The notes below the pieces were generated by a model, which was given only the letters and a program-made list of their open reading frames with translations, had not been told where the DNA came from and did not search any database. A DNA stretch of 29,521 bases from a virus, in the IMG/VR virus record IMGVR_UViG_3300020450_000068, positions 1 to 29,521 of that record; one strand, given 5' to 3'. The position numbers and the translations under genes are program-made. Shown here in pieces: positions 972 through 7,481 of the stretch. Within the stretch, counting starts at the first letter, position 1. Every line of letters begins with the position of its first letter.

Positions 972-1213
972 CTAACCCAATTTCCTTGTTTGTCCTTGCA
1001 ATAGTGCATGAATACAACTTTATCTTTGTAAGTATGAAAACCCCAAACTTCACCATTACCATCTTCATAATTTGGGTTTAATTTCCACTCAGTATATTTT
1101 TCAAAAGCATGATCGCAGGTAACTTTTTGAATACCTTGCGTTATTGGAATTTTTAATAATTCGTAACCTGGATCATTTGAGAGCAATCCCAAAAATAAAA
1201 AAAATATTTTCAT
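968..1213 (-). CDS. small protein with hydrophobic N-terminus, unknown
   Basis: 81 aa. Residues 1-12 (MKIFFLFLGLLS) are hydrophobic after Met-Lys and could be a short signal or anchor. The rest is soluble, rich in Trp, Tyr and His, and has two Cys (in VTCDHAF and HYCKDKQ). No family is recognised. It overlaps both neighbours (TAATG with the metallopeptidase upstream, ATGA with the nuclease-fold gene downstream), so it is certainly part of the operon. An envelope role such as superinfection exclusion is conceivable, but nothing shows it. Confidence 0.6.
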   Translation of the reverse strand: MKIFFLFLGLLSNDPGYELLKIPITQGIQKVTCDHAFEKYTEWKLNPNYEDGNGEVWGFHTYKDKVVFMHYCKDKQGNWVR

Positions 1214-1530
1214 TATGTTTCATATTTTTTGATGCCTTTTTTGATGATGTTTATTAATTTTGGATTTTGATAAAAAATTTTTGCAAATTCCTCAGTTAGT
1301 GTTGCAAAGGTTTCCTCTGATTTTGGTTTAGTTTTAGCTTTATCAACTAAAAAATGAGCTAATTCATGTAAAAGAATCGCTATATAATTTTGAATGTTTA
1401 AATTTTTTTGGATATAAATTGTTGATTTACTTGGCAAATACAACCCAAAGGCATTTTCAATCTTAGCTTGTTTAATGCTCATATATCTCACTTTTACCTT
1501 GTAATTCTTGTATTTTATTTCTTTTATCAT
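1213..1530 (-). CDS. small zinc metallopeptidase with HELAH motif (ImmA/SprT-like)
   Basis: 105 aa. LLHELAHFL carries the HExxH zinc motif at residues 55-59. A following acidic segment (EETFATLTEE, about 72-81) offers a third zinc-binding Glu with an ExxA spacing like that in ImmA/IrrE-type peptidases. It is short for a protease, about the length of single-domain ImmA or SprT-like phage proteins. It is the first gene of the leftward operon and is divergent from the putative repressor, the place where ImmA-type anti-repressor proteases often sit. The candidate promoter is TTGTCA (1572-1577), 16-bp spacer, TATTAA (1550-1555), all on the minus strand. Substrate unknown; cleavage of the repressor is only a hypothesis. 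Confidence 0.7.
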   Translation of the reverse strand: MIKEIKYKNYKVKVRYMSIKQAKIENAFGLYLPSKSTIYIQKNLNIQNYIAILLHELAHFLVDKAKTKPKSEETFATLTEEFAKIFYQNPKLINIIKKGIKKYET

Positions 1531-1649
1531 CCATGCGAATAATACCTAGTTAATACCTATTTTAACTTTGTTGACAAGTAATTTAATTTGTGCATAGTCA
1601 ACAAGACATTAACAAAATGAGAATAGACAAAATTAATTAAAATTATATT
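1531..1649. promoter_or_regulatory. divergent promoter/operator region of the lysogeny switch
   Basis: This holds a minus-strand promoter TTGTCA-16-TATTAA (1577 down to 1550) and a plus-strand -35 TTGACA (1571-1576) with a weak CATAGT at 1593. The two -35 boxes share the same bases, so the promoters should exclude each other. Inverted GTTGAC (1570-1575) and GTCAAC (1597-1602) lie in it. The dyad at 1549-1566 covers the minus-strand -10. Just before the repressor ATG there is also a TATATT (1644-1649), which could give a very short leader from another start. Confidence 0.6.
1549..1566. promoter_or_regulatory. predicted repressor operator, copy 1
   Basis: GTTAATACCTATTTTAAC is an imperfect dyad: the left arm GTTAATAC against the inverted right arm GTTAAAAT matches at 6 of 8 bases. 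It covers the -10 of the leftward promoter. Over the 17 bases that follow the first position it matches copy 2 at 14. A weaker related half, AATACCTAGTT, precedes it at 1541. Confidence 0.55.
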
Positions 1650-2321
1650 ATGGATATAAATAATATTAAAAAAATGCCTACTTTTAACAAGGAATTACTT
1701 GAATATTGTAAACATAAATATGGTGTTACAATGGATCAAATTATTAAAGAAATTAAGCCAAAAAATGAATTTGCTAATTGGAAAGTAAAAATATCAAGGT
1801 TAATTAATAAAAAAGAGTCAGATCCATCAAATTTTGGTTTATTAGAATTATCAGAAAATTTAGCTGATTATTTTAATTTAATATCTAGTGAGCATGACCA
1901 AAAATTTACAGCATCACAATTTATTGAAAAAGATTGTATAATTAATGTAGTTGGCGAATGTGTTGAAACTGGAGAAATTATTGAATGGAAAAAAAATAAA
2001 TGGAAATTAAAAGTTCCTAAAAATTTATGTAATTTACAAGGTTATTATATTAGACAAGGTGTATCACAAGGAAAAGTCAGAATTGCAAAAAAATTAGATG
2101 TTGATGGTTCAGCAGAATACAATTTTTCTATAGTTAAACAAAAAAAGACCAACAAATTATTTTATGGTTATTTAAAACCACTATCTAATGGAAAATTTAA
2201 TATTTGCGATTATTCAGTAATTTCAAGCGAAATTAAGATTTTACATCAAAATTTAGAAATAGTTAATAAAACCAAAATAATTAGCATGATTTCACCCAAA
2301 GAAAGCGATTGGGTTAAATAA
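1650..2321 (+). CDS. putative CI-type phage repressor
   Basis: 223 aa. The N-terminal ~70 residues are basic and helical (LLEYCKHKYGVTMDQII, then KISRLINKK), as in an atypical HTH domain. Residues ~95-215 look like the beta-rich S24/LexA-type oligomerisation half: VVGECVETGEII resembles the usual vvG-v-aG start, and GYYIRQGVSQGKVRIAKK sits where the substrate-groove strands would be. No Ser-Met or obvious catalytic Lys pair is visible, so self-cleavage is doubtful. Its place between a divergent operon and the early operon, with dyads on both sides, supports repressor function more strongly than the sequence alone. Confidence 0.55.
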   Translation: MDINNIKKMPTFNKELLEYCKHKYGVTMDQIIKEIKPKNEFANWKVKISRLINKKESDPSNFGLLELSENLADYFNLISSEHDQKFTASQFIEKDCIINVVGECVETGEIIEWKKNKWKLKVPKNLCNLQGYYIRQGVSQGKVRIAKKLDVDGSAEYNFSIVKQKKTNKLFYGYLKPLSNGKFNICDYSVISSEIKILHQNLEIVNKTKIISMISPKESDWVK

Positions 2322-2325
2322 CTTA

Positions 2326-2343
2326 ATTATCATCTATTTTAAC
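2326..2343. promoter_or_regulatory. predicted repressor operator, copy 2
   Basis: ATTATCATCTATTTTAAC. From its second base on it matches copy 3 (in the integrase promoter) at 15 of 17 positions and copy 1 at 14 of 17. It lies just upstream of the -35 (TTGACT, 2349-2354) of the early operon, a position suited to repression. Confidence 0.6.
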
Positions 2344-2384
2344 TATATTGACTTTCAGTTTAATTTGTATTATTGATTTGTTTA
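2344..2384 (+). promoter_or_regulatory. early operon promoter, very short leader
   Basis: TTGACT at 2349-2354 and TATTAT at 2368-2373 are the best -35/-10 candidates, although the 13-bp spacing is short. Bases 2334-2372 align without gaps to 1557-1595 (28 of 39 identical), so this looks like a duplicated control module. Transcription from here would start within a few bases of the ATG at 2385. No Shine-Dalgarno sequence is visible, so the first message may be leaderless. Confidence 0.45.
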
Positions 2385-3293
2385 ATGGCGAATCAACTAA
2401 AAATAATTGGTGAACCCTATAAAAAGTTTGGCTTGAAGCATACATCTAAGTCAACTGCTACCCTGCCTCACACTATCAGATTTTTTAAAAAGCATGTTCT
2501 TGATTATAAAGAGGCTAACAAATTGTCTAATGCCTCTCTGCAAGGTGGAACAATAATTCATTTAATAGTTCAAGAATGTTTAACAAATAATGTCAGTGTC
2601 GATAAAGCACTTAATAAAAAAGAAATACAAGATAAAATTAATTCTTATGAACCTTTTAATGAAAAAGATAAAAAAAAATATGAAATGATAATTAAGTTTG
2701 CTAGTGAAACTGCAAATAATCATTTAGAAAATATAAAAGAGTTACCTAAAGAACAATGGACAGATGAAATAGAATATACAGTTTGGACTCCACCAGTACA
2801 AACATATTGGTTAATGAGTCTTGATTTGGTGGGTAAGTTTTATTTTGGCGATTTAAAAAATAAATTTGGATCAGTTGAATTTAAACCATTAAAGAAAAAA
2901 CAAACAAAAATAAATCCAAATAGAATTGGAGATTATGTTATTTCATCAGTAAAAATACCTGATCGACCATTTTTTTCTGACTTGTTACAAATCGCTTTGT
3001 ATCAAAAAGCTTGTCCTAAAATACCTTTTTTGTCTTATGCAAGTCATACAGATAGAAAATTATTTACTGCAAAAAATTGTGAGGATTTAAAACAAAAAAA
3101 TTTAGATAATTATTTAAAGCAGCTAATGATTTATGAGATAGCTTGGCAAAAAAAATTAGAATGTGCTGATGGCGATATAAAAAAATTAGCTTGGTTATGT
3201 CCTCCTGATTTTTCAGATATTAAAAAAGATTCATTTTGGTGGCAGGGAGTGCCGAAAGAATACATCAACAGGTATTTAAAATATTATGAGTGA
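2385..3293 (+). CDS. RecB/Cas4-like PD-(D/E)XK exonuclease
   Basis: 302 aa from the ATG at 2385; an in-frame TTG twelve bases upstream seems less likely. All motifs of the RecB-type nuclease are in order: GTIIH (His59), Asp147 in MSLDLVG, VEFKP (Glu165, Lys167), and a closing LLQIALYQ (Gln202, Tyr206) like the QxxxY motif. Such phage nucleases chew one strand of double-stranded ends to make single strands for annealing. The ERF-type annealing protein two genes downstream fits an exonuclease/annealase pair like lambda Exo/Bet in logic, but from different families. It overlaps the next gene by 8 bases. Confidence 0.8.
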   Translation: MANQLKIIGEPYKKFGLKHTSKSTATLPHTIRFFKKHVLDYKEANKLSNASLQGGTIIHLIVQECLTNNVSVDKALNKKEIQDKINSYEPFNEKDKKKYEMIIKFASETANNHLENIKELPKEQWTDEIEYTVWTPPVQTYWLMSLDLVGKFYFGDLKNKFGSVEFKPLKKKQTKINPNRIGDYVISSVKIPDRPFFSDLLQIALYQKACPKIPFLSYASHTDRKLFTAKNCEDLKQKNLDNYLKQLMIYEIAWQKKLECADGDIKKLAWLCPPDFSDIKKDSFWWQGVPKEYINRYLKYYE

Positions 3294-3474
3294 TATGGGT
3301 ATTATAAAACCACTTAGGAATAGGATTAGAGATTTAGAGCAAATAAATAAAGAACATCAAAAATTAGTTGGTAATTTGCAAACCCAACTAAAAGACAAAA
3401 ACAAAAAAATAGATGAGCTACAAGAAAGAATGAACAACCCATTAAAAAAAATGAGAGGATTTGGAGATTTATGA
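3286..3474 (+). CDS. small coiled-coil protein
   Basis: 62 aa. Residues ~14-48 form an unbroken charged heptad-like helix (RDLEQINKEHQKLVGNLQTQ and onward), with a short Gly-containing tail (MRGFGDL). It overlaps the exonuclease stop by 8 bases and the annealing-protein start as ATGA, so the three are co-translated. It could bridge or scaffold the nuclease and the annealing protein, but that is only inferred from position. ATG at 3295 is an alternative start. Confidence 0.6.
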   Translation: MSDMGIIKPLRNRIRDLEQINKEHQKLVGNLQTQLKDKNKKIDELQERMNNPLKKMRGFGDL

Positions 3475-4124
3475 AAGATTTATTAAAAAAATTACACAAA
3501 GCATCAAATGAAGCAAAGAGTGTAACTAAAGAAAAAAAATCAGGTGGTATGAATTTTGAACCATTATTAGCTGATAAAGTCAAAGAGGTTGCTATGAAGG
3601 CATTTATTGAAAATAAACTTTATCCAATTTGTAATTACGAAACACATATAAAAGATAATTTTGTAATGATTGTTTGTAATATGAAGATTTATAATGTTGA
3701 AAACCCAAATGAATTTATTGAGGTAAATGGTAGCTCTGGTTATGGCAAACTTGACCGATATGGAACAGGTAATGGTATGACATATTCTCAAAAATATGCT
3801 TACCTTGCTGCTTTGAATTTAAAAACAGGAATTAAAGATGAAGATGGATATAATTTTGAATTAAATGAAAACACAACTAGTAAACAAAAACCAAATTTAA
3901 AAGTAGTAACCACTGATAAAAATTTTGTTGATGATTGGATTAGCAAAATGAATGAGGTTGCAAAATATGCAAAATCTCAAAATGATTATGAAAAAAGAAT
4001 TATGCCATTAAGAGAAGAATATCAAACAGAATTACATCAAATATCAACCGACCTAGTATCTCAACAAAGAATTGATGATGCTGAGTCTAAATTAAAACAA
4101 CAAATAAATATGAGGTATGAATAA
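3471..4124 (+). CDS. ERF-family single-strand annealing recombinase
   Basis: 217 aa. The ERF signature lies at about residues 87-127: a Gly-rich turn with GYGKLDRYG, then a GNGMTYSQKYAYLAALNL helix and TGIKDEDGY, matching the usual G-x-x-x-D...GKAxTYAxKYALxxxF...DxxD of the family. The N-terminal ~85 residues carry the beta strands (MIVCNMKIYN). The C-terminus (150-217) is helical and variable, as usual. ERF proteins anneal complementary single strands and circularise or recombine phage genomes. Together with the upstream exonuclease it forms the phage recombination module, which may matter for replication here because no polymerase gene is in the window. Confidence 0.8.
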   Translation: MKDLLKKLHKASNEAKSVTKEKKSGGMNFEPLLADKVKEVAMKAFIENKLYPICNYETHIKDNFVMIVCNMKIYNVENPNEFIEVNGSSGYGKLDRYGTGNGMTYSQKYAYLAALNLKTGIKDEDGYNFELNENTTSKQKPNLKVVTTDKNFVDDWISKMNEVAKYAKSQNDYEKRIMPLREEYQTELHQISTDLVSQQRIDDAESKLKQQINMRYE

Positions 4125-4345
4125 TGTCCGACTATAATAATACGATTGCATTTTGGAAAAGAAAACCAAAAGATAACGATGAACCTGGAAAAAAATATCC
4201 TAACTACACTGGTAAAATGACTGTAGATGGTAAACAAAAAGAGGTTTCATTGTGGCTTAATATGAAAAAACCAGAGGAAAGAAAAGAAGGTGATCCTGAT
4301 ATGAATGGCAGAATACAAGATCCATACAAGGCTAATAATGACTAA
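4124..4345 (+). CDS. small Y-x-G/VDG/W protein, possible single-strand-binding helper
   Basis: 73 aa. The core AFWKRKPKD...YPNYTGKMTVDGKQKEVSLW matches a pattern seen in many small phage and DUF736-like proteins: basic strand, YxG, VDG turn, then a strand ending in Trp. It is likely a small five-strand barrel. It starts at TAATG on the ERF stop and overlaps the next gene by 8 bases. Its place in a recombination operon and its basic barrel suggest nucleic-acid binding, but this is inference. Confidence 0.6.
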   Translation: MSDYNNTIAFWKRKPKDNDEPGKKYPNYTGKMTVDGKQKEVSLWLNMKKPEERKEGDPDMNGRIQDPYKANND

Positions 4346-4637
4346 AGAACAAGTAAACCCAGATTATTATAAAAATAAATCTATTGAAACTTACGATGCT
4401 ATAGTTTCTCAGTTATCGCCATTAGAGGTCATTGGTTATCATAGATCACAGATTATGAAATACACAATGAGGTTTGGTGAGAAACATGGTGAAACTATAC
4501 ATTCGTCTTTAATGGACGCATCAAAGGCTCATTGGTATTCAGAAAAATTAATTCAATACATGAATGACTTGAAAACAAAAGGAATAGATATTGAGCCAAC
4601 AACTAATATTGAGGAGTTATTTAAAGAAAAAAAATGA
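4338..4637 (+). CDS. DUF3310 family protein
   Basis: 99 aa from ATG 4338; an earlier ATG at 4305 is possible but would add a 33-base overlap. It fits the DUF3310 pattern: VNPDYYKNKSIETYDAI, LSPLEVIGYHRSQIMKYTMR, then a DASKAHWYSEKLI helix, where the family has PxHY...E-x-iDvi...gfx-x-x-x-iKY-x-R...DLxKAxxYLxxLI. The family is common in phage early operons and is sometimes tied to nucleotide metabolism, but its function is not settled. Confidence 0.8.
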   Translation: MTKEQVNPDYYKNKSIETYDAIVSQLSPLEVIGYHRSQIMKYTMRFGEKHGETIHSSLMDASKAHWYSEKLIQYMNDLKTKGIDIEPTTNIEELFKEKK

Positions 4638-4921
4638 AAAAAACTAATGGACATAAAATATATTTTTCAGAAAAAAAATTTAAAGTTTTAAAATTTATAA
4701 AAGATTTTATTGAAAAATATAATTATTCGCCAACTTTATTTGAAATTGCAAATCAGTTTGGTTATTCAAGAGCTAGAGCAGGTGTTATTGTTAGGGATCT
4801 GTACAAAATGGGTTTGATTTATAAAGGTGAAAGCAATCATAGAAAAATAAGAATGACTGCTAATCAAATAAGTTCAGTTAAAAATTTAAAATTTAATAGG
4901 GAGTTTCAAGCACATGCCTAA
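4634..4921 (+). CDS. LexA-type winged-helix DNA-binding domain protein
   Basis: 95 aa. Residues ~12-75 match the LexA N-terminal DNA-binding domain: FIEKYNYSPTLFEIANQFGY (SPT and EIA are diagnostic), then SRARAGVIVRDLYKMGLI and RKIRM in the wing. There is no C-terminal S24 peptidase half; the remaining ~20 residues are polar. It overlaps the preceding gene as ATGA. It is probably a small regulator, either of the phage's own promoters or of host LexA-type sites; no target can be assigned. Confidence 0.75.
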   Translation: MKKTNGHKIYFSEKKFKVLKFIKDFIEKYNYSPTLFEIANQFGYSRARAGVIVRDLYKMGLIYKGESNHRKIRMTANQISSVKNLKFNREFQAHA

Positions 4922-5126
4922 GATTACAAAAGAAAGTTATTTTGATGTCCAATGTAAGGCACAAGAAGAATTTGAAAGTGTAGAACAAGCTATGCAATCA
5001 AATAGACCTAGTGAAAATTCTATGGTCGAAATCTTGAATGTTAATATTACTAACACCAAGATTAAAACAATAAAGGAGCAACAAGAAGCAAATGAGTCTA
5101 AGCAACAGCAAAAGCCTCAAGTATGA
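4914..5126 (+). CDS. small acidic early protein, unknown
   Basis: 70 aa, no family recognised. The N-terminal half is helical and acidic (VQCKAQEEFESVEQAM). The middle has a short beta-like segment (MVEILNVNITNTKIKTI), and the tail is Gln-rich. It overlaps the LexA-like gene by 8 bases and the next gene by up to 35, so it is expressed with the early operon. Confidence 0.5.
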   Translation: MPKITKESYFDVQCKAQEEFESVEQAMQSNRPSENSMVEILNVNITNTKIKTIKEQQEANESKQQQKPQV

Positions 5127-5274
5127 CAAAATGAAAGAGCTTTTTGAGAAAATTTATGCAGGTAAAGACACTAGGCAGTGTGTTTGCAGACTAAAGCATA
5201 AAAAAAAGTTCGATCAATTATATAGAGAAGTTGTCAGAATTGAGAATAGAGATGCTAAATTTATGTATGGTTAA
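5092..5274 (+). CDS. small basic early protein, unknown
   Basis: 60 aa from ATG 5092; ATG 5131 gives a 46-aa version starting MKELFEKIYAGKD with only a short gap after the previous stop, and may be the true start. The core is helical and basic (CVCRLKHKKKFDQLYREVV). No family recognised. It is followed by a 65-base gap before the DnaA-domain gene. Confidence 0.5.
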   Translation: MSLSNSKSLKYDKMKELFEKIYAGKDTRQCVCRLKHKKKFDQLYREVVRIENRDAKFMYG

Positions 5275-5328
5275 GTAAACCATAACTAAAAGTTGTAAAA
5301 AACTACAGGCTATTTGTCTGCTCAAATT

Positions 5329-5342
5329 AAGGAGGGAGCTTG
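5329..5342 (+). promoter_or_regulatory. strong ribosome binding site selecting a TTG start
   Basis: AAGGAGGGAGC directly precedes TTG at 5340. It is the strongest Shine-Dalgarno match in the early operon, where most starts have almost none. It makes the TTG start more credible than ATG at 5358, which would lie too far away. Confidence 0.6.
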
Positions 5343-5843
5343 AGAACTAAATTATCTATGATTAAGAGTGCCATGAAAGCACCTCAATATGAAAATTTAA
5401 CAACTCAAGAATTAAATATTTTTCAATCAGGTTTTAGGAATGGATTTAATATTGCTCATTTAGAATTTAAAGAAAAAATTAAAAAATTACATATTATCAT
5501 TAAACACCTCAAAAAAAGACAACCGATATTAATTCAAACTGATTTAAAAAAAACTGCATCAGCAAATGATATGAAAAAAGTCCTACAATGGGTTTCAAAT
5601 AAATTTAATGTTGATGAAAATGTTATCACTGCAAAATCAAGATTGGCAGATGTAACAAAATTAAGATCCCTTGCATTAAATATTATTTATGAAAATTACG
5701 ATGTCAGCACACCTGCTATGGGTAGATTTTTTAACATGGATCATACAAGCATATTGCACCACATAAATAATAAAATGAATTTAAGAAGCTGTTGGAAAAG
5801 TAATTCTAATTTATGGAAATATTATAATGAATTTAAAAGTTAA
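5340..5843 (+). CDS. stand-alone DnaA domain IV-like DNA-binding protein
   Basis: 167 aa. Residues ~78-148 match the C-terminal DnaA-box-binding domain of the bacterial initiator: ITAKSRLADVTKLRSLAL corresponds to the basic loop and helix (SKSRxxxVTxARxxAM), and MGRFFNMDHTSILHHINNK to the IGxxFxRDHTTVLHA signature (Asp134-His135-Thr136). There is no AAA+ Walker region; the first 75 residues are a short helical extension. The protein could bind DnaA boxes to recruit or block host initiation, or act as a regulator. It is the last gene before the terminator. Confidence 0.8.
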   Translation: MRTKLSMIKSAMKAPQYENLTTQELNIFQSGFRNGFNIAHLEFKEKIKKLHIIIKHLKKRQPILIQTDLKKTASANDMKKVLQWVSNKFNVDENVITAKSRLADVTKLRSLALNIIYENYDVSTPAMGRFFNMDHTSILHHINNKMNLRSCWKSNSNLWKYYNEFKS

Positions 5844-5954
5844 AGTTTTACAGAATTATTGGGTTAATGTTGGATCACCTGATAATCATTCATAATGCTC
5901 TTTGAGAATGAAAAAGTATCCAAACAATTTGATGTAATGATGATGATGACAACT

Positions 5955-5975
5955 GGGGGCTTTTAGCCCCCTTTT
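5955..5975. terminator. GC-rich terminator between convergent early and integrase genes
   Basis: GGGGGCT (5955-5961), loop TTT, AGCCCCC (5965-5971), then TTTTGTCTT on the plus strand. It ends the rightward early operon. On the minus strand the hairpin lies just after the integrase stop and probably ends that transcript too, although the U run there is poor. Bases 5844-5954 contain no gene; a GATGATGATG run near 5936-5950 is the only notable feature. Confidence 0.85.
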
Positions 5976-5978
5976 GTC

Positions 5979-7121
5979 TTAATTCCAAATAATATTTTCT
6001 GAAAATTTTTGTTGCTTATTGTTATGCTCAAATGGAGCAATATAAGTTCTATTAACAAAGTTTATATCTTTATCACCAATAAAATGTGCAAGTTCTAAAG
6101 CATTGTTAAACTTACCTTTAGCTGCAAAATAAGTAGTTCTATAATGCCTAAAAAGGTATGCTTTTCGCTTGATTGGAAAATCCTGATACTCAGGTCGCAT
6201 TTTTTTAAAACTCTTGTTTATGGCTCTTATAAGCCTTTCTACGCATATATATTTACCTTTTGTATTAAGAAATAGTTTATCTTGTAGGTCAGGCAAGGAA
6301 TTGACATAATCTACTATATGATCTTTAAGCGATGCTGATATTTCAACAATTCTCTCACCCTGTTCAGTTTTTGTTTCACCAAGTTTCTTATGCCTTTTTA
6401 CTGCCTTATTTATATTTATTTGCAAATTGTTTGATTTTAAGAATATCAAATCCGATCTTTCTAATGCTCTTATCTCACTTGGTCTTGCAGCAGTTTCTAA
6501 TAAGATCATATATATAAGTTTAATCATCTTATCATCAATATTGTAGATAAGCTCTTGCATGACCTCAAAAGTCCAAAAATCAAGATCAATCTTTTTTCTT
6601 TTTTTATTGGGTGTAAATATATCTGTTAAATAATTAATATCTTTTGTAATATTAAAATCTAGCCTACCTTTGTCTGCACAATAAGAAATAATATTTTTAA
6701 AATGATTAAATATTTTAGTGATTGTTTTACCATCTAATTGTTTGCTTTTTAAGGACTCTATAAAATCAATTATATTTTGCTTTTCAATTAATCTTACATC
6801 TTTGTTTTTAAAAAATGGATAGATATGGCATTTATAAAAACTATGATAATCTTCAATAGTGCTATCGCTAGTTTTACCAATGCTCCTTTTATAATTAAGG
6901 TGGGAGTTTACAAAAAAGTCCTTTGCCTCATTTAAGGTAAGCTCTTGGCTATTTGTTTTGATAAAACCTCTGTCTTTAAATATTTTTTCTATTTTATCAT
7001 TTAGTAAGGCCTTAGTAGGTGCTTGTAAAAAAGCTGTTTTACCATCTGCTTTTTTATATTCAAACCTTGCAATTTTTTTACCTTTTTTATTTATGGTAAA
7101 ATGTATATTGTAATTAATCAT
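5979..7121 (-). CDS. int: tyrosine recombinase integrase
   Basis: 380 aa, normal length. Residues 1-60 are an arm-binding N-terminal domain (HFTINKKGKKIARFEYKKAD), 65-165 the SAM-like core-binding domain, and 180-365 the catalytic domain. Arg213 (AARPSEIRAL), Lys251 (ETKTEQGER), Arg325 (YLFRHYRTT) and the nucleophile Tyr360 (FVNRTYI) are in place. Tyr322 stands where HxxR usually has His, a variant known in other integrases. IGDK puts Asp350 where the second His/Trp is expected. A good AAAGGAGAG precedes the ATG. It lies beside the attP and acts on the tRNA-Thr site. Confidence 0.92.
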   Translation of the reverse strand: MINYNIHFTINKKGKKIARFEYKKADGKTAFLQAPTKALLNDKIEKIFKDRGFIKTNSQELTLNEAKDFFVNSHLNYKRSIGKTSDSTIEDYHSFYKCHIYPFFKNKDVRLIEKQNIIDFIESLKSKQLDGKTITKIFNHFKNIISYCADKGRLDFNITKDINYLTDIFTPNKKRKKIDLDFWTFEVMQELIYNIDDKMIKLIYMILLETAARPSEIRALERSDLIFLKSNNLQININKAVKRHKKLGETKTEQGERIVEISASLKDHIVDYVNSLPDLQDKLFLNTKGKYICVERLIRAINKSFKKMRPEYQDFPIKRKAYLFRHYRTTYFAAKGKFNNALELAHFIGDKDINFVNRTYIAPFEHNNKQQKFSENIIWN

Positions 7122-7124
7122 TTT

Positions 7125-7178
7125 CTCTCCTTTAATATAGTTATCATTTAGTTATACCATTGTTATCATCTATTGCAA
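7125..7178 (-). promoter_or_regulatory. integrase promoter and ribosome binding site
   Basis: On the minus strand TTGCAA (7173-7178), 16-bp spacer, TATAAC (7151-7156), then AAAGGAGAG eight bases before the ATG. The -35 is inside dyad copy 3. A second GTTATCAT (7140-7147) lies 22 bp from the one in the dyad (7162-7169), two helical turns apart, bracketing the -10. Confidence 0.6.
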
Positions 7179-7179
7179 C
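7162..7179. promoter_or_regulatory. predicted repressor operator, copy 3
   Basis: GTTATCATCTATTGCAAC. Apart from the first base it matches copy 2 (2326-2343) at 15 of 17 positions. It covers the -35 of the integrase promoter, so the repressor could shut integrase off together with the early genes. Confidence 0.55.
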
Positions 7180-7193
7180 TAATCAATTGACAT

Positions 7194-7238
7194 AACTATG
7201 TAGAAAATATGAGAAAAAACTATGTAAAAACTATGTAA
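7194..7238 (+). repeat. integrase arm-type sites, P arm (three copies)
   Basis: AACTATGTAG (7194-7203), AACTATGTAA (7218-7227) and AACTATGTAA (7229-7238). The last two are 11 bp apart, about one helical turn. They lie between the integrase promoter and the attP core, as expected for arm-type binding sites of a lambda-like integrase. Confidence 0.7.
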
Positions 7239-7274
7239 AAAAATAACAAATACAATTTTTAGCCATAATTTAGG

Positions 7275-7316
7275 CACAAAAAAAGTGGCTCTTATACTTA
7301 AATTAGTATAAAAGCC
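7275..7316 (-). terminator. rho-independent terminator of the late operon
   Basis: GGCT-c-TTATACT, loop TAAATT, AGTATAA-a-AGCC (7287-7316) is an 11-bp stem with one mismatch. Read on the minus strand it is followed by ACTTTTTTT, a good U tract. It would stop the long leftward late transcript after the attP and before it enters the integrase promoter region. Confidence 0.7.
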
Positions 7317-7331
7317 TATATATTTAACTAT

Positions 7332-7373
7332 GCCCTTGTAGCTCAGCTGGTAGAGCAATTGATTTGTAATCAA
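7332..7373 (+). other. attP core: 5' half of a tRNA-Thr(UGU) gene
   Basis: The sequence has a complete tRNA 5' half: acceptor strand GCCCTTG, D arm GCTC-AGCTGGTA-GAGC, and anticodon arm ATTGA-TTTGTAA-TCAA with anticodon TGT at 7365-7367. After TCAA the tRNA pattern stops (no variable loop, T arm or acceptor 3' strand). This is the expected signature of an integration core shared with a host tRNA gene. It is unusual in carrying the 5' rather than the 3' part. An arm-like AACTATG (7326-7332) abuts it. Confidence 0.8.
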
Positions 7374-7418
7374 AGTGCTGCCACAATAAAAGCTAATTTT
7401 ATTATATTTTTGTCCACT

Positions 7419-7481
7419 GACTATGTAACAACTATGAAACATTGGTGAATACTTTATTAACACAATGTCAATAACATAGTC
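7419..7481. repeat. integrase arm-type sites, P' arm (two direct, one inverted)
   Basis: GACTATGTAA (7419-7428) and AACTATGAAA (7430-7439) are again 11 bp apart. An inverted copy, GACTATGTTA on the minus strand, lies at 7472-7481. They use the same motif as the P arm on the far side of the core. A separate perfect stem AATAGCT-CTA-AGCTATT sits at 7499-7515, without a T run. Apart from these, 7122-7550 holds no gene. Confidence 0.65.

Follow-up and report, generated by a model that had tools for sequence, protein, structure and literature searches.

A predicted two-operator CI-like switch in a Pelagibacter podophage and its possible connection to the integrase promoter

Three similar sites at predicted promoters

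Can one repressor hold both the lytic operons and the integrase of a temperate phage under a single switch? This question is raised by three similar 18-base-pair (bp) sites in the IMG/VR virus record IMGVR_UViG_3300020450_000068, of which positions 1 to 29,521 were analyzed here (the window). The nearest isolates to this 29.5-kilobase (kb) sequence by DNA are Pelagibacter phages, a group counted among the most abundant viruses, in which the lysis-lysogeny decision of temperate members is little described. An earlier note on this DNA had proposed that a repressor encoded at 1650-2321 occupies all three sites and turns off the transcripts of a leftward operon, an early rightward operon and the integrase gene (int). 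Our analysis favors, with a probability of about 0.72, a switch with two operators, in which a CI-like repressor acts on either side of its own gene, while the element at the int promoter is conserved for int-promoter function or for a different DNA-bending protein, for example an excisionase; the same estimate jointly covers the reading of this area as an immunity region and of the phage as a temperate Pelagibacter podophage. The proposal is supported for the leftward and early transcripts, where a conserved pair of dyads accompanies the CI-like gene, whereas for int the evidence is mixed.

The three sites occur exactly as they had been described, GTTAATACCTATTTTAAC at 1549-1566, ATTATCATCTATTTTAAC at 2326-2343 and GTTATCATCTATTGCAAC at 7162-7179. 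Without the first base, copies 2 and 3 match at 15 of 17 positions and copies 1 and 2 at 14 of 17, and the related site GTTATCAT is present at 7140. A search with GTTATCATCTATTTTAAC at up to 3 mismatches matched only these three places in the window, compared to a mean of 0.15 in dinucleotide shuffles, none of 100 of which reached three. The promoter relations claimed for the sites also fit the sequence. Site 1 (O1; dyad at 1549..1566, plus strand) lies over the -10 element and most of the spacer of a predicted leftward promoter (1550..1577, minus strand; TTGTCA at 1577-1572, 16 bp, TATTAA at 1555-1550). It also ends 4 bp before the -35 element of a likely rightward promoter of the repressor gene (1571..1598, plus strand; TTGACA-16-CATAGT, 10/12 in the consensus scan), a geometry which was absent from the earlier note and which equals that of site 2 (O2; dyad at 2326..2343, plus strand), ending 4 bp before the -35 element of the predicted early rightward promoter (2348..2376, plus strand; TTGACT-17-TATTGA, with the start codon at 2385). 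Site 3 (7162..7179, minus strand) combines one operator-like half with the -35 element TTGCAA (7173-7178) of the predicted int promoter (7151..7178, minus strand; TTGCAA at 7178-7173, 16 bp, TATAAC at 7156-7151).

Since a generic promoter consensus scan of the window gave 15 matches against 10.3 +/- 3.0 expected, a number not above chance, the support for these promoters rests on conservation. We fetched 30 loci carrying the early nuclease gene; relatives are designated by L numbers. The leftward promoter elements are kept in L001, L016 and L017 and appear as TATAGA in L023 and L031, TTGACAAG of the repressor promoter is invariant across all relatives, TTGAC and TA.T.A of the early promoter are invariant in nine relatives, and both hexamers are conserved in eight int promoters. 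In the relatives read, the early -10 element lies about 8 bp ahead of the first start codon (window 2348-2387) and a ribosome-binding site is absent; judging from this arrangement, the early mRNA is probably leaderless.

A predicted CI-like repressor between two conserved dyads

The gene at 1650..2321 (plus strand) encodes a protein of 223 amino acids that was missed by sequence searches: no family match and no helix-turn-helix match were obtained in Pfam, a sequence-profile search of solved structures gave no match, and none of the isolated phage records matched it. An alignment of 6 sequences gave a model too poor for a fold search, and an alignment of 15 relatives was used instead, from which AlphaFold produced a model with a predicted local distance difference test (pLDDT) value of 81. 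When this model was compared to the PDB by Foldseek, CI of phage 186 was the best match (E 2.2e-4, probability 1.00), and the C-terminal domains of lambda CI and LexA were matched with probabilities of about 0.9-1.0, which places a LexA/CI-type (S24-like) beta fold at the C-terminus. The model's helices 14-24, 28-35, 38-52 and 64-78 are compatible with a putative helix-turn-helix. Because 186 CI, lambda CI and LexA are the closest solved structures, the earlier guess that this gene encodes a repressor was well founded. Inspection of the 15-relative sequence alignment revealed no GDS-type (GDSM-like) catalytic serine motif; to our knowledge, the Ala-Gly cleavage site with the Ser/Lys dyad of RecA-stimulated self-cleavage is absent in 186 CI.

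Repressors of the window type were found at 81% identity (L001, L003/L019), 62% (L016, L017, L018) and 48-52% (L023, L031, with L026 partial). In the group with 62-81% identity, an 18-bp dyad of the form RTTAAnAY-nn-RTnTTAAY flanks the repressor gene on both sides, although single copies show some departures. The O1 form is kept in L001, L003, L016 and L017 and the O2 form in L001, L016 and L017, while the 48-52% group carries a related 19-bp form (at O2 in L023, L026 and L031). Dyads at the repressor's own promoter and at the early promoter were thus found down to 62% repressor identity, and in the related form down to 48%. Site 1 of L016/L017 has its outer pair changed from G..C to A..T on both sides, and site 2 of these loci reads ATTAACAT-CT-ATCTTAAC with nearly perfect halves, the near-perfect dyad halves of this lineage being ATTAACAT/GTTAAGAT. 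In addition, every relative read that carries a window-type repressor, down to those with 48-52% identity, keeps the same spacing between the site and the neighboring rightward TTGAC. An operator model built from relatives only, with the window left out, scored 20.9 at 1549 and 19.0 at 2326, compared to 12.4 for the best non-site in the window (shuffle p ~0.0005 for each site, the floor of the test), and when 2.9 million viral contigs were scanned for the operator together with TTGAC of the -35 element, all matches lay within this phage family. Counting of symmetric pairs in the site-1 alignment gave a weak signal in its seven sequences. Taken from this pattern of conservation, sites 1 and 2 are very likely two operators of the 223-amino-acid protein encoded between them. 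In the comparison on which the earlier note had staked its claim, that of site conservation in relatives with conserved flanks, sites 1 and 2 hold up, while site 3 does not clearly do so.

Several records lack the repressor gene. In L007 (contig 3300030330_004279, 4860-4987), the flanks are 98-99% identical to the window DNA on both sides, site 1 remains, and about 60 bp without similarity to the window stand in place of the repressor gene and site 2; this record represents either a naturally occurring repressor-less variant or an assembly effect. In L008, a 27-kb record, the metallopeptidase gene is separated from the nuclease gene by 65 bp that contain one decayed site, and in L021, L022, L024, L025, L037, L042 and L043 the repressor is missing beside the nuclease gene within contig reach. 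No repressor relative was detected in any of these records, which are mostly fragments, in a search whose positive control worked. L007 and L008 were not accepted as strict tests of selection on O2, since a deletion of the repressor gene directly takes site 2 with it.

We infer that the CI-like repressor binds two single dyad operators on either side of its own gene. At O1 it would block the leftward early promoter, which serves genes from a metallopeptidase to a replication protein, via the -10 element, and repressor dimers there would also control the repressor's own rightward promoter and hence its own level. At O2, just upstream of the early -35 element, it would block the rightward operon (nuclease, ERF recombinase), either by hindering RNA polymerase from upstream of the -35 element or by looping to site 1, the centers of the two sites being 777 bp apart. 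The int promoter would have its own conserved element resembling half an operator, which the repressor may touch weakly in the window lineage.

Such an arrangement resembles those of phages 186 and lambda in the putative helix-turn-helix and predicted LexA/CI-type C-terminal fold of the repressor, in the dyad operators at divergent early promoters, and in a repressor promoter beside the operator. In contrast to the clustered tandem operators of 186 and lambda, the window has single operators, one on either side of the repressor gene; there is also no sequence similarity, no obvious catalytic serine motif as described above, and no cro-like gene found beside the repressor. As a phage switch it would be of an ordinary type, here in a group about which little is known; it is compact and testable, and the related contigs supply a useful set of natural variants that either carry or lack the repressor gene.

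Besides the window type, a second repressor type with 22-28% identity occupies the same place in L027-L040, flanked by different repeats (CAGATTAA), and likely represents a separate immunity group.

The element at the integrase promoter

The tyrosine integrase (5979..7121, minus strand; 380 amino acids; phrog_1, E 5e-32) would be transcribed from the predicted promoter that contains site 3. If the same repressor bound all three sites and shut the leftward, early and int promoters, integrase would be silent in the lysogen and coupled to the control of immunity. With the relatives-only model, site 3 scored 12.6, third in the window, and its position within the ~210-bp int upstream region had p 0.012, with p 0.001-0.005 for models including the window sites; however, this score is next to background, the best non-site being almost equal, and with a symmetric operator model the site fell to background level (p 0.08). 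The half GTTATCAT is a good one, while the other half is fixed by TTGCAA of the -35 element. Consistent with repressor binding, site 3 shares GTTATCATCTATT exactly with O2 of L023 and at 12/13 positions with O2 of L001, and the second GTTATCAT at 7140 is also found in L002/L006. On the other hand, site 3 is unchanged, inside a 41-bp identical stretch, in L008, whose record is missing the repressor. The int side of the L016/L017 lineage was taken to be represented by L066, L067 and L068 from a later scan, since the int genes of two of these overlap the L016/L017 int at 96-98% and the third is a near-identical sequence. The int promoter of this lineage reads GTTGACATTTATTGCAAC and does not match the lineage's own operators (p 0.32-0.35), and int promoters of the L031 group do not match the general operator model (p 0.13-0.51). 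Neither in the L016/L017 lineage nor in L008 did the int site change together with the other operators of the repressor, a result which is not final as the pairing of contigs is itself inferred. The match in the window lineage is real (p 0.001-0.012) but is set against the symmetric model and the relatives, and we regard a repressor that shuts all three promoters as rather unlikely. The version in which it also binds site 3 plus the half-site at 7140, which would place both lytic operons and integrase under one repressor with three single operators, we consider unlikely; if true, the lysogeny switch would be very small and have no cII- or cro-like parts.

Irrespective of changes in the repressor operator, all int promoters have in common GTTnnCATnTATTGCAA, followed by TAATCAAT and then the -10 element. 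Because GTTnnCATnTATTGCAA is shared by all of them, it suggests an integrase-promoter or excisionase-type element. Apl of phage 186, a dual excisionase and switch regulator, binds at att and at the early promoters, between pR and pL, via one-turn direct repeats (PMC7498355). A comparable regulator could recognize such repeats in the int promoter, and perhaps also in O1, in which case the motif would not belong to the CI-like repressor. In line with this, GTTAT units recur exactly every 11 bp at 7140, 7151 and 7162 (7140..7172, plus strand) across the int promoter (p 0.004 for three units, which were chosen after seeing them), AATACCTA is repeated directly with 11-bp spacing at 1541/1552 in site 1 (p 0.002), and the int promoter element has int on one side and the arm sites of the phage attachment site (attP) on the other. 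As in the case of Apl, related sites occur at int/att and in the early promoter region. However, site 2 is without such a repeat (p 0.99), the early-operon site being a dyad rather than a repeat array, and only degenerate repeats occur in L008, L066 and L031. Furthermore, the repeat statistic was chosen after looking, neither an excisionase gene nor an Apl homologue was identified, and the small gene beside int varies by lineage. A regulator of this type accounting for the motif appears quite unlikely.

Alternatively, the likeness of site 3 to the operators could be coincidental, the site being merely a conserved core integrase promoter. The nearly equal score of the best non-site elsewhere in the window fits this explanation, as does the conservation of the -35 and -10 elements and the flank TAATCAAT in all int promoters. 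It does not account for the spacer between the hexamers, which is also conserved (GTTnnCATnTA) and unneeded by a bare promoter, nor for the position in the int upstream region, which has p ~0.01 by chance, and we judge coincidence, too, to be on the unlikely side. An exact search for site 3 in all viral contigs returned family members and other contigs in which only the 18-mer was seen to match.

The two-operator switch with a separately conserved int element accordingly remains the reading to which the above probability applies, and several points weigh against it. O2 is located upstream of the -35 element and not over it, so that blocking needs steric interference, looping or lost upstream contacts. 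The operator model was built on only eight sites, and all relatives are metagenomic contigs. In L007, O2 was removed by the deletion itself, and its absence is not an independent sign of relaxed selection. Finally, L066/L068 were paired with L016/L017 by 96-98% identity across 124-373 bp of int and, partly, by their common metagenome, and not through one contig.

Neighboring genes and the attachment region

The leftward operon (minus strand) consists of genes at 1213-1530, 968-1213, 462-971 and 40-459, beginning with the metallopeptidase and ending with an O-like replication protein. Rather than a lysogeny operon, this looks like a lytic one, with a replication gene, and the repressor appears to be served only by the rightward promoter at 1571. 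The metallopeptidase (1213..1530, minus strand; 105 amino acids) carries a HELAH motif, is M78/ImmA-like or SprT-like, and has a metallo-protease PHROG match; its M78 match (E 4e-4) scores 20.6, below the curated cut-off of 22. In the ImmR/ImmA module of ICEBs1 and phages, an M78 metallopeptidase adjoins a helix-turn-helix repressor. The window is similar in that the M78-like gene is divergent from the repressor gene, and differs in the sub-threshold match and in the retention of the peptidase gene in the repressor-less relatives L007, L008, L021, L037, L042 and L043.

The early rightward operon starts with the nuclease-like gene (2385..3293, plus strand), followed by an ERF recombinase at 3471. 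Distant homologues of the nuclease (22-26% identity) occur in the isolated pelagiphages HTVC024P, Lederberg EXVC029P, Greip EXVC021P and others. These isolates share the nuclease with the window phage, whereas no isolate matches the repressor, and the integrase has distant matches only, in isolated phages other than those sharing the nuclease. A search of bacterial genomes with the integrase found no prophage copies.

The attP region (7195..7439, plus strand) contains ACTATGTA arm-type repeats at 7195, 7219, 7231, 7420 and 7431 around a core at ~7333-7383, which is tRNA-derived by sequence reading, while ARAGORN does not call a whole tRNA. In L008 (5800-6048) the tRNA-derived core is missing and the P and P' arm sides are joined directly, with the integrase open reading frame and promoter intact. 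Between the attP core and int, a minus-strand terminator (window 7287-7316) is conserved in relatives and would shield int from leftward late transcripts. A slot beside int holds unrelated small genes according to lineage (window 5340-5843, L008 7315-7575, L031 5553-5879), encoding a DnaA C-terminal-domain protein, a protein of 83-86 amino acids or an XRE-type helix-turn-helix protein. A role of DnaA boxes in connection with the DnaA-like gene was considered and dismissed, as TTATNCACA does not occur in the window. Outside the window, a strongly conserved intergenic element between convergent genes (L016 975-1140, L049 3990-4160, L008 13220-13390) contains a promoter-like TTGACA...TATAAT, an operator-like dyad ATTAATATnnAnnTTAAC and a terminator.

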